Assembly (NCBI RefSeq): GCF_003403295.1
Contig: NZ_QUWV01000059.1
Span: forward strand, 1 to 42,742
Reading direction: 5' to 3'
DNA: 42,742 nt
Origin: Komagataeibacter melaceti
GTDB lineage: Bacteria; Pseudomonadota; Alphaproteobacteria; Acetobacterales; Acetobacteraceae
The notes under the pieces were generated by a model. It ran no database searches. It was given only the letters and a program-made list of their open reading frames with translations, and was not told the origin of the DNA. A program made the translations under genes and the position numbers. The first letter of the stretch is position 1, and each line of letters starts with the position of its first letter. Of this stretch, positions 24,156-29,307 are shown piece after piece.

Positions 24156-26312
24156 ATGTTGTCCAGCATTACGCGCACCTTTTCCATCGATGCCCGATGG
24201 GCCGCCACGTGCACCACGGCGGCCTACAGTGCGCGTGCGCTCCTGTCTGTCGGGATCGCGCTGTTCCTGGCGTTCAGCTTCCAGCTCCAGTCCCCCATGA
24301 GTTCGGTCACCACCGTCATGATCGTGGCCAACCCCACGGTGGGGGCGCTGGTGTCCAAAAGCGTGTGGCGTGTGATCGGCACCATCATTGGCGCGTCCAT
24401 AAGCGTGGGGCTTATGGCGGTGTTCGTGCAGTCGCCGGTACTATATTTTATGGGGCTGTCACTGACGGTGGGGCTGGCCTGCATGGCCGCGACCTTCCTG
24501 CGGCTGTTCCGTGCCTATGCCGCCGTGCTGACGGGCTATACGATCGTCATCATCTCCGCCCCCGCGTTTGATGACCCTGACGGGATCTTCCTCAGCGCCA
24601 TGTCGCGCCTTGCTGCGGTGGTGGTGGGCATCGTGACCACGGCGGCGGTGTTCATGGTCACCTCGCCGCGCCGTTCGGACACGCTGTTCATCCAGATCCA
24701 TGACCTGTTCCGTGACACGGTCAGCTACATCCTGTCGTTCCATCAGGGCTACAGCAACGTGCCCGCGCCGAACCCGACCGCCACGCCCGCCAGCACCTTC
24801 CGCACCCTGCCCCCCACGTTTCATGACAGCCGCGCCGCCATGCTCAGCCGGATCGGGCGGCTGTCGGATGCGGTGGAATACGCCGCGACGGACAATTACG
24901 ACATAAGCGTGCGCCAGCGTGAAATCCGCGCGGGGCTGGCACGGCTTTCGGGCATTGTCGCCTCATACCATCCCCATACCGTCACCGCCTCCAATACGGA
25001 GGAAGACCGCATGGTGCATGGCGAGATCGTGTCCATGCTCCAGTACCTCATGGACATTACCGCCAACCAGACGCTGGAAAGCACATGGACCAGCGGCTGC
25101 GCACGCATAAGCCAGACCCGCGCCATCATGATCGCGCATGCGCGTGACAGCCACTCCCCGCAGTCGCTGCTGTTTCTGGACGATATCCAGGACCTGCTGG
25201 GCCAGATCGAGACGGCGTTGCAGGATCTGGCCCGCCGTGGCAGCGCGGGGCGGCGGCTGCGGCTGCAACCCTATCTGGAATGGCCCACGGCGCTGCGCAA
25301 CGGCGCGCGCGGAGCAACGATCACGATGCTGACGGCGCTGGTCTGGTACGTCCTGCACTGGACGGCGGGGCCGACGATGATGCTGTACGTGGTGGCCGCC
25401 GCCAGCCTGCTGTCCACCCTGCCCTCCGCCTCACGCGCGTCAGGGCTTATGGCGGCGGGCACGGCGCTGGGAATCCCGGCGGGGCTGTTATGCCATATCT
25501 ACCTGCTGCCGCAGGTGGATGGGTATCCGCTGCTCTGGCTTTCGCTGTGCATCATGCTGCTGCCGGGGGTGTGGCTGCAGTTCCACCCGCAGGTGGGGGT
25601 CGGGGCATTTGGCTACTGCGTGTTTTCCACGGTCATGCTGCAAGTCAACAACCCCATCCATTATTATAATGACATAAGCCTGTTCAACGGCTGGCTGGCG
25701 CTGTTTCTGGGCTGCTGCATGCTGGTCCTGTCCTTCCGCGTGATCCTGCCGCCCAACCACCGGGTGGATGCGGCGCGCCTTGTCACGTCGCTTACGCGCA
25801 GCCTGCGCAGGCTGGCGCTGTCAGGCCGCAGGCAGGGCAAGGAATGGCTGGTGTGGGAGAACCTGCAACTGCAGAAGGTCCTGCGGCTGGCGATGCGCCT
25901 GTCGTTCTTCGCGCGGCCGGGGGTGATCCACCAGTATATTGACGCGGCACTGGCCACGCTCTCGCTGGGGCGGCTGGTGGAACGCATCCGCACCATTGCG
26001 GAAAGCCCCGAGATTACCGGTGGCCAGCAGGTGGCCATCTATGATGCGCTCGACGCCTTTGCCGAGCTGGCGCACAACCCGCTGCTGACCGCAAAGGCGC
26101 TGCGGCACGCGGCGTACATCCTGTGCCCGCCCGATGCGATCACCCTGCGCCCGGCGGCCCAGGTCGAGGCCATGGCCTGCCTGGAACAGGCCGCGCAGAT
26201 CATCCAGGATATTCCCGGCTTCCTTGACCGGCGCGGCCCGCTGCAATGGGGCGAGGACTATCCCGCCGCCCACCGGCCGCCGCTTGCCGCCGTCAGGCCG
26301 GAAGTCGGCTGA
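24156..26312 (+). CDS. FUSC family exporter (aromatic-acid or similar, AaeB-like)
   Basis: An inner-membrane exporter of the FUSC (fusaric acid resistance) family, which includes AaeB for p-hydroxybenzoate. Two similar blocks of about five to six membrane helices are seen (about residues 25-180 and 380-540), each followed by a soluble helical part; the N-terminal block begins LSVGIALFLAFSFQLQSPMS. Length 718 aa is normal. ATG at 24156 is preceded by GGGAG. The gene stands alone but is divergent from marR. Members usually need a separate HlyD-type adaptor (AaeA); none is adjacent, so it may borrow the one at 22272 or act alone. Its last 20 bp overlap the next gene on the other strand. Confidence 0.85.
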   Translation: MLSSITRTFSIDARWAATCTTAAYSARALLSVGIALFLAFSFQLQSPMSSVTTVMIVANPTVGALVSKSVWRVIGTIIGASISVGLMAVFVQSPVLYFMGLSLTVGLACMAATFLRLFRAYAAVLTGYTIVIISAPAFDDPDGIFLSAMSRLAAVVVGIVTTAAVFMVTSPRRSDTLFIQIHDLFRDTVSYILSFHQGYSNVPAPNPTATPASTFRTLPPTFHDSRAAMLSRIGRLSDAVEYAATDNYDISVRQREIRAGLARLSGIVASYHPHTVTASNTEEDRMVHGEIVSMLQYLMDITANQTLESTWTSGCARISQTRAIMIAHARDSHSPQSLLFLDDIQDLLGQIETALQDLARRGSAGRRLRLQPYLEWPTALRNGARGATITMLTALVWYVLHWTAGPTMMLYVVAAASLLSTLPSASRASGLMAAGTALGIPAGLLCHIYLLPQVDGYPLLWLSLCIMLLPGVWLQFHPQVGVGAFGYCVFSTVMLQVNNPIHYYNDISLFNGWLALFLGCCMLVLSFRVILPPNHRVDAARLVTSLTRSLRRLALSGRRQGKEWLVWENLQLQKVLRLAMRLSFFARPGVIHQYIDAALATLSLGRLVERIRTIAESPEITGGQQVAIYDALDAFAELAHNPLLTAKALRHAAYILCPPDAITLRPAAQVEAMACLEQAAQIIQDIPGFLDRRGPLQWGEDYPAAHRPPLAAVRPEVG

Positions 26313-26886
26313 GGACGGAGAACGACACGGCGTCCATGACGGTCGTGTCCACTTCGTCACCGACCTTGAGGGTCTTGAGGAACTCCTGCATCGGCTTCTG
26401 GCGCACCAGCACGACGCGGGTGATGTCATCGGGATCGACAAAGGTGACCTGATTGCGGGTCGTATCGAGACCCGTCACCTTGACGCGCTCACGCTTGAAG
26501 GAAACCATCATGCCGTGCGGATGCTGGCCGGTGCGGGTGCCGGCGGCGTTCTCGGTCGATTCAGGCATGGGGGAGCCGGGGGCGGCGATCGTGGCGTCAA
26601 TGGTGCGCACGATGCGCAGGCCGATCTTGTCGCCCGCATGCAGCACCGGCAGCTTGGCGCGGATGTCCGGGTCCACGCGCACGGTGTCCAGATTGCCCGC
26701 CCTGTCACGCAGCAGGATCATGCCCGCATCGTGGTCCACGCTCTCGACGGTCGCGACACCCAGCTGATTGCCCACGATGACCGGGGCCTGCGCCATCGCG
26801 GAAGTCCCGCACAGTCCCGCAACACCCTCGATGGTTGCCGCCAGCGCCCATGCGACCGGGCGGGATGCAAACAGTTTTTTGTTCAT
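26293..26886 (-). CDS. Predicted periplasmic protein of unknown function
   Basis: I do not recognise a characterised family. The 197-aa protein has a signal peptide (basic MNKKLFASRP, hydrophobic WALAATIEGVAGL, likely cut after SAMA) and then a beta-rich soluble part with repeated patterns such as VESVDHDAGMILLRDRAG, VTGLDTTRNQVTFVD and VGDEVDTTVMD, consistent with small barrel or OB-like folds. The ATG at 26886 is followed directly by the basic n-region. Its last 20 bp overlap the 3' end of the FUSC gene on the opposite strand. It lies on the same strand as the GST gene but about 130 bp away, so may have its own promoter. Confidence 0.7.
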   Translation of the reverse strand: MNKKLFASRPVAWALAATIEGVAGLCGTSAMAQAPVIVGNQLGVATVESVDHDAGMILLRDRAGNLDTVRVDPDIRAKLPVLHAGDKIGLRIVRTIDATIAAPGSPMPESTENAAGTRTGQHPHGMMVSFKRERVKVTGLDTTRNQVTFVDPDDITRVVLVRQKPMQEFLKTLKVGDEVDTTVMDAVSFSVLSRLPA

Positions 26887-27017
26887 ATATGTGTCTTCCC
26901 TGAGTGGTTTTTTATGAATGCTGGTCCCTGCTGGCGGCCCTACACATGGGCCACCAGTTTCCTCCATAACCCTAACAGGGGATCATGTATGCCAAAGATG
27001 TAGATGTGATGAATATG

Positions 27018-27629
27018 TCAGGCGTAATCCGGCACGCCGGGCATGACCGCAAAACCGGGCAGCGCGCGCATCCTGCGCGCCCAGCGCCGCAGGGCGGGGC
27101 AGGTATCACGTTCCACCCCCACATCGGCCGACAGCGCGAACACCACGAACAGCACCACATCGGCAATGCTGGCGGCAGGGGCCGCGAACCAGTCATGGCC
27201 TTCAAGCGCGCGGGCGCTCATGTGGTCTTCCATCCGCCGCAGCATCACTTCCAGCGCGCCGGTGGCGGGCACGACCGGCATGGTGGTGCCAAGTGCTCCC
27301 CCACGGCTGGCCGCCAGCGCATCGAGCGCACCGCCCCCGAAATCCAGCCAGTCCAGAATGACCCATTCACAGGCGGGGTCGAGCCATGCCCGCGCCACAT
27401 CGGGCCTGCGGGCGATGAAATGCAGGATGTTGGCAGGCCGTGACAGCCGCAGGCCACCATGCTCCAGCACCGGCGGACACCGCCCCGTGGCGAATACCGG
27501 CAGGCGCCGGGTGCCGGGCAGGTCCATGTCCACCGCTTCCGTGCGGTACTCCACGCCCATGAGCGACAGGCCAAGACGCACGGCGTAGCAGCGCACATCC
27601 GGCGTCCAGTCATACAGGATCATATCCAT
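27018..27629 (-). CDS. Glutathione S-transferase family protein
   Basis: A 203-aa protein with a thioredoxin-like N-terminal half (MILYDWTPDVRCYAVRLGL; cis-Pro region RCPPVLEHGG) and an all-helical C-terminal half ending ALRRWARRMRALPGF. The usual catalytic Ser/Tyr/Cys position near the first strand is not clear (YDWTPDVRC), so catalytic activity is uncertain. The ATG at 27629 lies 2 bp after the Rieske gene stop, so these two are certainly co-transcribed. GST-fold proteins occur next to ring-cleavage or demethylation enzymes, where they take glutathione conjugates or isomerise products; that role here is inference. Confidence 0.75.
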   Translation of the reverse strand: MDMILYDWTPDVRCYAVRLGLSLMGVEYRTEAVDMDLPGTRRLPVFATGRCPPVLEHGGLRLSRPANILHFIARRPDVARAWLDPACEWVILDWLDFGGGALDALAASRGGALGTTMPVVPATGALEVMLRRMEDHMSARALEGHDWFAAPAASIADVVLFVVFALSADVGVERDTCPALRRWARRMRALPGFAVMPGVPDYA

Positions 27630-27631
27630 CG

Positions 27632-28285
27632 TCACGCCAGTTCCTCCATGACCGCGGCGGTATCGCCACCACATTCCACCGCATCGCGCAGCCGCGCGGC
27701 CCAGTGCGACAGGAAGGGTGCGGACGGTGCGCCATCCCCTTCCGCCCGGACCACATGCAGCATGGCCTGCCCCGCGACCGGCTCATGCACCGCAAGGCCT
27801 ACACGACCAGTCCACAGCACGGGCGTATCATCATCCATCCCGATCGCCTGGCGCAGCGGTGCGATTCCTGCATGGACATGCACGCTGCGCACGGGCTGGA
27901 CCCCATCCACGCCCTGTGCCGCCTGCGGGGCGAAATCCGCCGCCGCATCCAGGCTGACCCACGCAAGCCCGGCCCATTCACGCACGCCATAGGCGCCCAC
28001 ATGAATCGAGGCGGGCGCACGCACCTGCGGGTGGGCCGGGATCAGTTTGCACCGCGCGCCCGCACCGAACTGCCAGCCATGATACAGGCAGCCCAGGCCA
28101 TCACCGCGCACGAACCCGAAACTGAGCCGCATGCCGCGATGCGGGCAGCGGTCCTCCCACGCATGGAGGGTGGATGTGGCGCTGTCCTCGCGCCATAGCA
28201 CGATCTCATGCCCGCCAATCCGCACGCCCGCGACCTCGCCACGGTGTATGTCGGACAGGACACTGACCGGATGCCATCTGTGCAT
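27632..28285 (-). CDS. Rieske [2Fe-2S] protein lacking an oxygenase catalytic domain
   Basis: The N-terminal 110 residues are a Rieske domain of the ring-hydroxylating-oxygenase type: C47-P-H49 in RCPHRG and C66-x2-H69 in CLYHGW, spaced by 16 residues, all four cluster ligands present. The start MHRWHPVSVLSD matches the N-terminus of oxygenase alpha subunits. After about residue 115 there is only about 100 aa of unrecognised sequence; no D-x2-H-x4-H mononuclear-iron motif is present. ATG at 28285 has GGAAGAG upstream (217 aa). It is divergent from the gene at 28453, which encodes a catalytic domain without Rieske ligands, and the two look like the two halves of one enzyme. Confidence 0.82.
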   Translation of the reverse strand: MHRWHPVSVLSDIHRGEVAGVRIGGHEIVLWREDSATSTLHAWEDRCPHRGMRLSFGFVRGDGLGCLYHGWQFGAGARCKLIPAHPQVRAPASIHVGAYGVREWAGLAWVSLDAAADFAPQAAQGVDGVQPVRSVHVHAGIAPLRQAIGMDDDTPVLWTGRVGLAVHEPVAGQAMLHVVRAEGDGAPSAPFLSHWAARLRDAVECGGDTAAVMEELA

Positions 28286-28452
28286 ATGCTCTTCCGCTCC
28301 CTTCCGCCGGCACGGACAGGGCCTGCCTGTCCGTCCGGCCATTCCTTCACGCCATGGGATGGCGTGCCGTCCTGAATGGAGCTAACATTGCAAAACCGTT
28401 ACGGCAATCCATGCGCGTGATGGATGACATACTGAAAACACAGGACCGGGCC

Positions 28453-29307
28453 ATGACACTGACCACCCCAGCCGCTGAAACCGTTCTGTCCGAATGGCAT
28501 GTGATCAGCCCCCTGTCACACCTGCGCACCACGCCAACCGACACCATGCTGCTCGACCGGCACATCACCTTTGGCCACGATGCCGATGGCGCGCCCTTTG
28601 CGTGTGACGTGGCGGAGCGGCGCAGCCTGCCCGTGCAGGCGCGCCATGGCTGCCTGTGGACATGCCTCGGCACGCCCAGAGGTGACATTCCCGCCATTAC
28701 CGAAACCATGGAACCCGACCGCAGGGTCGTGGATTGCGGCGTGATCACGGTGCGCACATCCGCCCCGCGCATTGTCGAGAACTTCCTCGACATGGCGCAT
28801 TTCCCCTTCGTGCACACCAACATCCTCGGCGCCGAACCGGATACGGAAGTGGCGCGCTACAACATAGAACTGCGTGAGGACGGCAACGAGGTCTGGGCCA
28901 CGGACTGCCATTTCTACCAGCCGCAGGCCGCCCTTTCGGCCGCCGGTGGAATCGAGACGGAATACCTGTACCGCGTGGCCAGCCCGTTCGTGACGCTGCT
29001 GTACAAGACCTGCCCCACCCAGCCCGAACGCTTTGACATCATCACCCTGTTCGTCCAGCCGATGACACAGGAAACCAGCCGCGCGCACCCGGTCATGTTC
29101 CTGATTGACGATGTCTCGCCCCAGGCCGACCTGATCCAGTTCCAGCAGACCATCTTCCTGCAGGACCGGATCATACTGGAAAACCAGCGCCCGCGCCGCC
29201 TGCCGCTGTCCAGCGGGGCGGAAATACCCACCATGGCCGACCGCATGTCGGTGGCGTACCGCCGCTGGCTGCGTGACCGTGGGGTGCAGTACGGCACCAC
29301 GGCCTGA
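28453..29307 (+). CDS. Rieske-oxygenase catalytic (VanA_C-like) protein without Rieske cluster ligands
   Basis: The main part matches the catalytic domain of VanA-type aromatic oxygenases/demethylases. The mononuclear-iron motif is intact: D113, H116 and H121 in NFLDMAHFPFVH. The N-terminal 75 residues recall a Rieske-domain scaffold (SEWHVISPLS at the start, VQARHGCLWTCLGTP at the end) but the piece of about 50 residues with CxH and CxxH is absent. The protein therefore cannot hold a [2Fe-2S] cluster itself. ATG at 28453 is chosen for the upstream AGGA at 7 nt; ATGs at 28354, 28411 and 28420 are in frame but poorly supported. Length 284 aa, against 330-350 in VanA. Electrons could come from the divergent Rieske protein. 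Confidence 0.8.
   Translation: MTLTTPAAETVLSEWHVISPLSHLRTTPTDTMLLDRHITFGHDADGAPFACDVAERRSLPVQARHGCLWTCLGTPRGDIPAITETMEPDRRVVDCGVITVRTSAPRIVENFLDMAHFPFVHTNILGAEPDTEVARYNIELREDGNEVWATDCHFYQPQAALSAAGGIETEYLYRVASPFVTLLYKTCPTQPERFDIITLFVQPMTQETSRAHPVMFLIDDVSPQADLIQFQQTIFLQDRIILENQRPRRLPLSSGAEIPTMADRMSVAYRRWLRDRGVQYGTTA

Follow-up and report, generated by a model that had tools for sequence, protein, structure and literature searches.

Three genes within a 42,742-bp stretch of Komagataeibacter melaceti DNA (contig NZ_QUWV01000059.1; the whole stretch is referred to below as the window) very probably encode one split Rieske non-heme-iron oxygenase, a reading to which we assign a probability of about 0.85 from the sequences. 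One protein carries the ligands of the Rieske cluster and another those of the mononuclear iron; the two genes occur together, mostly in linkage, and a gene for a GST-like protein usually accompanies them. The locus comprises the following features:

27018..27629, minus strand: GST-like (NdmE-type) gene, 203 aa if translated from the ATG at 27629 (longest possible frame from 27674)
27632..28285, minus strand: Rieske-only gene, 217 aa; Pfam Rieske, E 2.2e-20
28286..28452, no strand: intergenic stretch separating the two divergent genes (Rieske and catalytic), as read from the sequence
28453..29307, plus strand: cluster-less catalytic gene, 284 aa; VanA_C, E 6.4e-21; the frame is open from 28354

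Structure of the locus and of the two putative half-enzymes

The GST-like gene is located directly downstream of the Rieske-only gene on the minus strand, and the catalytic gene is transcribed divergently from the plus strand; the intergenic stretch 28286..28452 is presumed to contain putative promoters for both divergent genes. Alignment with the paralogue and with related proteins favors 28453 over 28354 as the start of the catalytic gene. The GST-like gene probably starts at position 27629 (MDMILYDW...), two bases past the stop codon of the Rieske gene; a Met at this position is missing in four Komagataeibacter relatives. Between the trio and a gene for a FUSC-type transporter (24156-26312) there is a 224-aa frame (26293-26967, minus strand) for which Pfam gave nothing significant (YajC, at E 0.086, scored best).

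Inspection of the minus-strand protein bore out the claim of an earlier note that it has the full set of four Rieske ligands but lacks an iron motif. Its Rieske domain spans residues about 2-110 and contains C47, H49, C66 and H69, which are invariant in all 46 aligned rows (the window protein and 45 of 72 frames, retained after thinning and length filtering). Only Rieske-type Pfam matches were obtained for this protein, with no match to a catalytic domain. Among solved structures, its residues 2-120 align to residues 10-128 of SxtT, and its best PDB match is the N-terminal domain of an oxygenase (E 4.8e-26), the best ferredoxin reaching 1.6e-6. Its identification as a Rieske ferredoxin was rejected on the basis of this far weaker match and of its length (217 aa versus about 105 aa). 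A C-terminal region of some 100 residues follows, which can be aligned to the linker part of NdmD (NdmD residues about 115-255), and for this reason NdmD resembles a free Rieske protein joined to a reductase. Comparison of the same region with the catalytic domain gave a weak match (hhalign E 0.0046, probability 7.6%), so that complementary decay of two gene copies, with this region as a degenerate catalytic domain, is a weak candidate for the origin of the split.

The plus-strand protein matched the Pfam families VanA_C and KshA_C, and no Pfam Rieske match was found up to an E-value of 1. Alignment with full-length oxygenases confirmed the earlier observation that this VanA-like chain has lost the approximately 50 residues that bear the cluster loops, and showed that it retains the initial and final strands of a Rieske domain. 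Its N-terminal strands align with the N-terminus of the Rieske protein (hhalign, 38 columns, E 1.6e-5, probability 79%), and its residues 87-315 (numbered from 28354) align to residues 102-333 of SxtT. The two window proteins thus match the same full-length oxygenase structures with complementary stretches, and neither carries both the iron site and the Rieske site, which in an ordinary alpha subunit lie on one chain.

The iron site was assigned by comparison with CntA. According to the part of the CntA paper available to us (PMC7948474), this enzyme has Rieske ligands Cys86, His88, Cys106 and His109, a triad of His208, His213 and Asp323, and a bridging Glu205; its two centers are 44 Å apart within one chain and 12.2 Å apart across subunits. 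By position, H116 and H121 of the window protein are the predicted equivalents of the two histidine ligands, and D113, three residues ahead of the first of them like Glu205 in CntA, is the predicted bridging carboxylate. The iron motif proposed earlier (D113, H116, H121) consequently stands as regards the two histidines and not as regards D113; the third ligand is most likely D238, whose counterpart in the alignment with SxtT and NdmA is the Asp of the equivalent motif. Both D113 and D238 are invariant in all 36 rows of the catalytic alignment (the window protein and the 35 frames left from 81 by thinning and length filtering).

Recurrence and co-occurrence of the split

Relatives of the catalytic chain are numerous in the species-genome collection: at least 550 were confirmed, the closest being those of Komagataeibacter (83-87% identity), and the best 80 loci were examined. 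Among these best 80 of at least 550 loci, 72 have a separate Rieske frame (67 of these frames stop inside the fetched stretch and 5 are cut by its edge), and 67 have a GST-like gene, in agreement with the previously proposed coupling of a GST-fold gene to the Rieske gene. For the other eight loci, each genome holds a full-length Rieske-only match (224-305 bits), which in five of these genomes lies at the edge of the stretch or within 1 kb of it, if the contigs are the same. We also looked for catalytic homologs with a Rieske motif of their own, as the earlier note had suggested, and found none among 81 frames. Both iron-site patterns were matched in 79 of the 81, and the corresponding residues of the other two, read by eye, are kept. 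All four cluster ligands are present in 71 of the 72 Rieske frames (the remaining one is cut by the locus end), none of which contains the iron motif. Because Rieske ligands are missing from all 81 catalytic frames and complete in 71 of 72 Rieske frames, the split is not a matter of chance. A single gene disrupted by a frameshift or by misassembly was considered and rejected, since the genes lie on opposite strands and the split recurs in related loci.

A second trio was identified in the genome of the window, on contig C199, where the GST, catalytic and Rieske genes are co-directional. Its catalytic and Rieske proteins are respectively 51% and 39% identical to those of the window, and both halves are split in the same manner. 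An amidohydrolase gene is located beside this trio and a xanthine-dehydrogenase-like gene adjoins it; nearby genes were assigned by eye to a BMP-type binding protein and an aldehyde dehydrogenase. In this cluster, one 1062-aa frame (L011:5367-8555) combines the FAD-binding and molybdopterin-binding parts of a xanthine-dehydrogenase-type enzyme.

The absence from each half of the parts found in the other, together with the few glutathione-site residues kept by the GST-like partner, could be taken to mean that one ancestral oxygenase gene was broken into two non-working pieces. We consider this highly improbable. All three genes are under purifying selection, with dN/dS values against four Komagataeibacter species of 0.17-0.19 (catalytic), 0.27-0.40 (Rieske) and 0.27-0.39 (GST-like); moreover, the split is maintained with intact ligands across Acetobacteraceae, Rhizobiales and Rhodobacterales, and the second trio is intact.

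The co-occurrence of the two genes in Acetobacteraceae, a check proposed at the outset, was analyzed in 90 genomes (catalytic cut-off E up to 1e-30). The catalytic protein was found in eight of them, and a full-length Rieske-only protein (at least 140.7 bits) in the same eight and in no other; the next Rieske match, of 112.4 bits, was to a 369-aa frame of which only the Rieske domain was covered. At most 27 catalytic and 32 Rieske candidates were scored per genome, and in genomes with more candidates a weak match could therefore be missed. Random placement would yield the same 8 of 90 genomes with a probability of 1.3e-11 (1 in 7.8e10), kinship being ignored. All ten places in these eight genomes are linked on one contig, seven of them divergent and three co-directional. 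The divergent arrangement described earlier therefore holds for 7 of 10 Acetobacteraceae places; the C199 copy and that of R. etli are co-directional.

These data bear on the possibility that the two proteins act independently, with the Rieske protein as a ferredoxin-like carrier for other oxygenases and with another donor for the catalytic protein. Rieske sequences occur at seven places in the genome of the window, three of which lie in frames of 378-417 aa, and NdmD, as stated in the consulted part of PMC4408171, serves several oxygenases, so promiscuity is conceivable. In addition, two plasmid stretches, from Roseicitreum (L104:8001-8867) and Lichenihabitans (L094:3180-4070), contain the catalytic gene with no Rieske or GST frame within the stretch read. 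Set against this are the co-occurrence and linkage of the halves, the top PDB matches of the Rieske protein, which are to N-terminal domains of oxygenases and not to Rieske ferredoxins, and its size, twice that of a ferredoxin; we regard independence as improbable. The split-enzyme reading is supported by the linkage, the co-occurrence, the second copy and the predicted bridging residue on the catalytic chain. The Roseicitreum catalytic gene is annotated as (2Fe-2S)-binding, although its family has no cluster site.

Relationship to NdmCDE and other Rieske oxygenases

The earlier note knew of no described enzyme with a split arrangement, which proved incorrect: NdmCDE, the 7-methylxanthine N7-demethylase of the caffeine-degrading strain Pseudomonas putida CBB5, has been published. 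As described in the consulted portions of two reports (PMC4408171, PMC10380055), (i) NdmC has no Rieske cluster, (ii) NdmD contains an extra Rieske domain fused to a reductase, and (iii) NdmE is a GST-like protein required for formation of the NdmCDE complex. The latter is of 360 kDa and contains three of each subunit (PMC10380055, in part), and 18 further organisms, mainly of the genera Sinorhizobium and Mesorhizobium, are mentioned in the available part of a review (PMC4408171). NdmCDE is the characterized precedent for a large set of split oxygenases that includes the window trio. As in NdmCDE, its catalytic chain is cluster-less, of about the same size and within the same clade, the Rieske domain and linker are on a separate protein, and the third protein is GST-like. 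In contrast to NdmD, in which the Rieske domain is fused to an FMN/NADH/plant-type ferredoxin reductase, the Rieske protein of the window is free (217 aa). This free subunit and the lack of a reductase gene beside it distinguish the window form from NdmCDE. In the literature searched (titles and beginnings of abstracts, and the accessible parts of PMC4408171, PMC10380055 and PMC8055839), we found neither a description of the free-Rieske form nor a function assigned to it.

The NdmC-, NdmD- and NdmE-type sequences used for comparison originate from a Klebsiella plasmid, Paraburkholderia caffeinilytica and plasmid pSymA of Sinorhizobium meliloti, not from CBB5; the NdmD-type proteins of Klebsiella and S. 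meliloti contain Rieske, NAD-binding and Fer2 domains. In a tree of 45 catalytic chains, from which four long-branch rows and eleven others had been left out, the cluster-less chains, including those of NdmC type, form one clade versus 10 full-length oxygenases (support 100/100), and the free-Rieske chains constitute their own branch (99/87) apart from four NdmC-type chains. A quick tree of 60 chains, for which the 81 catalytic frames were thinned to 37, agrees in its main split (SH-aLRT 99) but places one divergent chain, from K. nataicola, outside the branch of free-Rieske chains. The catalytic-chain trees thus place NdmC-type chains beside free-Rieske chains. In the tree of Rieske domains, split and full-length forms are set apart with low support (68), and the two NdmD domains are nested among free Rieske proteins (fork support 83), in contrast to the catalytic tree. 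The abstract of the primary NdmCDE paper, Summers et al. 2013 (J Bacteriol), reportedly says that split clusters occur more broadly, and part of the present family may already have been seen there.

It is conceivable, if rather unlikely, that the trio is a true NdmCDE ortholog, i.e. a 7-methylxanthine N7-demethylase differing only in its unfused Rieske protein. Such orthology would account for the shared cluster-less clade, GST-like partner and Rieske-plus-linker layout, as well as for the position of the NdmD domains in the Rieske-domain tree; it would also fit genome G017, in which a free Rieske protein (220 aa) is part of a trio otherwise nearest to NdmC- and NdmE-type chains. The separate branch of the free-Rieske chains argues against it. 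Furthermore, in the best 80 of at least 550 loci, of whose 72 Rieske frames 5 are cut, no frame gave its top match, above 45 bits, to an NdmD- or VanB-type reductase, and the neighbors in relatives of the window trio are deaminase and importer genes, pointing to purine import and deamination, and not NdmA or NdmB.

The third protein gave GST_N and GST_C Pfam matches below the cut-offs, and matched the PDB GST structure 3m8n with an E-value of 3.8e-10. The position of NdmE Ser10 is occupied by Asp in 70 of 75 aligned GST-like rows, that of the window included, and the [ED]S motif keeps its Ser in 4 of 75 rows and lacks it also in two of the three NdmE-type rows. We take both to be glutathione-binding positions of ordinary GSTs; the residues usual at these positions are not kept, and an ordinary catalytic glutathione transferase was rejected. 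A structural rather than catalytic role, as proposed for NdmE, would suit the GST-like protein by analogy.

Several other systems may be compared with the trio. SxtT/SxtDIOX, NdmA/NdmB and HpxD are full-length relatives, to a single chain of which the Rieske and catalytic proteins can be aligned in complementary parts; in those enzymes both centers lie on one polypeptide. The annotated plasmid pKNA08 of K. nataicola, like the window, has adjacent genes for a free Rieske protein, a cluster-less chain and a GST, and differs in having a separate VanB-type reductase gene inside the cluster. One of the two Rieske proteins of pKNA08 (L099:4140-5491) is without the second Cys ligand (GVYHGW versus CLYHGW) and its gene adjoins that of a very divergent catalytic chain, so this module is possibly degenerating or altered. 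In S. meliloti pSymA (L098:8971-10782), two different cluster-less chains are encoded in tandem ahead of a single NdmD-type gene and a single GST-like gene, which they would seem to share. The annotated start of the P. caffeinilytica NdmD-type gene (L096:13231-14625) is apparently too late, the Rieske part being located just upstream in the same reading frame.

Putative substrate, reaction and electron supply

The gene neighborhoods of related loci suggest a purine-type substrate as likely for the split oxygenase, because relatives usually adjoin BMP-type importer genes and often deaminase-like genes, and because HpxD (annotated as a xanthine hydroxylase) and NdmA/B are full-length relatives. 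Among the best 80 of at least 550 loci, 62 have a BMP-type gene, and 50 have a guaD-type (41) or other amidohydrolase (36) gene. One representative guaD product exceeds the cut-off of the guanine deaminase family TIGR02967 (419.9 versus 375.4), and another amidohydrolase is nearest to 8-oxoguanine deaminase but falls under the cut-off of that family. No importer or deaminase gene was found beside the window copy or in the Komagataeibacter loci L013-L019, and the substrate of the window enzyme is therefore deduced from its relatives. A guaD relative (52%) with a BMP-type gene nearby is present elsewhere in the genome of the window, on contig C167.

In the proposed enzyme, the Rieske, catalytic and GST-like proteins would form a complex, following the NdmCDE precedent. 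The free Rieske cluster would dock at the place occupied by the cluster of the neighboring subunit in an ordinary alpha3 oxygenase, and the GST-like protein would probably hold both halves together, as has been proposed for NdmE. Electrons would pass from the H49/H69 side via the bridging D113 to the iron held by H116, H121 and D238, which would activate O2. To judge from the neighborhoods of relatives, the substrate would most likely be an N-methylated base or an aminopurine base, brought in by the BMP-type ABC importer and also handled by the guanine-deaminase-like enzyme, and the reaction would be an N-demethylation or a ring hydroxylation. The electron donor would be encoded away from the trio, and a general ferredoxin may serve in some relatives.

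A more specific version of this scheme, which we put forward as a doubtful conjecture, is a widespread alphaproteobacterial purine-salvage oxygenase in which the free Rieske subunit, independent of any reductase and fed by a housekeeping ferredoxin, would be docked by a dead GST onto the cluster-less iron subunit. Such an enzyme would remove the methyl group from methylated guanine or xanthine (e.g. the 7-methylguanine of RNA turnover) after import and deamination.

Electron transfer between subunits is usual in Rieske oxygenases and is hard to isolate because both centers are on one chain. In a naturally divided enzyme with a free Rieske subunit, each center can be mutated, exchanged or reduced independently of the other. 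With at least 550 relatives of the catalytic chain, the best 80 of which were examined for the split, this large family would be a concrete starting point in the search for methylpurine catabolism among plant-associated and acetic acid bacteria.

The electron donor of the trio may differ between species. The sole VanB-type reductase found in the genome of the window is encoded on contig C6, beside a full-length oxygenase, and is 39% identical to that of K. nataicola. Of the other trio genomes, G017 and G044 have clear VanB-type reductases, G038 has one of 29% identity, and G001 contains a 717-aa frame with FNR-type and Fer2 matches. In three of the eight trio genomes (G055, G007 and G076), we found no VanB-type reductase and no frame with both reductase and Fer2 matches; partial reductase matches were to frames of 404-425 aa with no Fer2 match, the predicted products of which look like flavohemoproteins. 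Fer2 frames of 299 and 575 aa are present in G007 and of 191 and 554 aa in G076, and in both genomes the shorter one matches in the manner of the short ferredoxin of other genomes.
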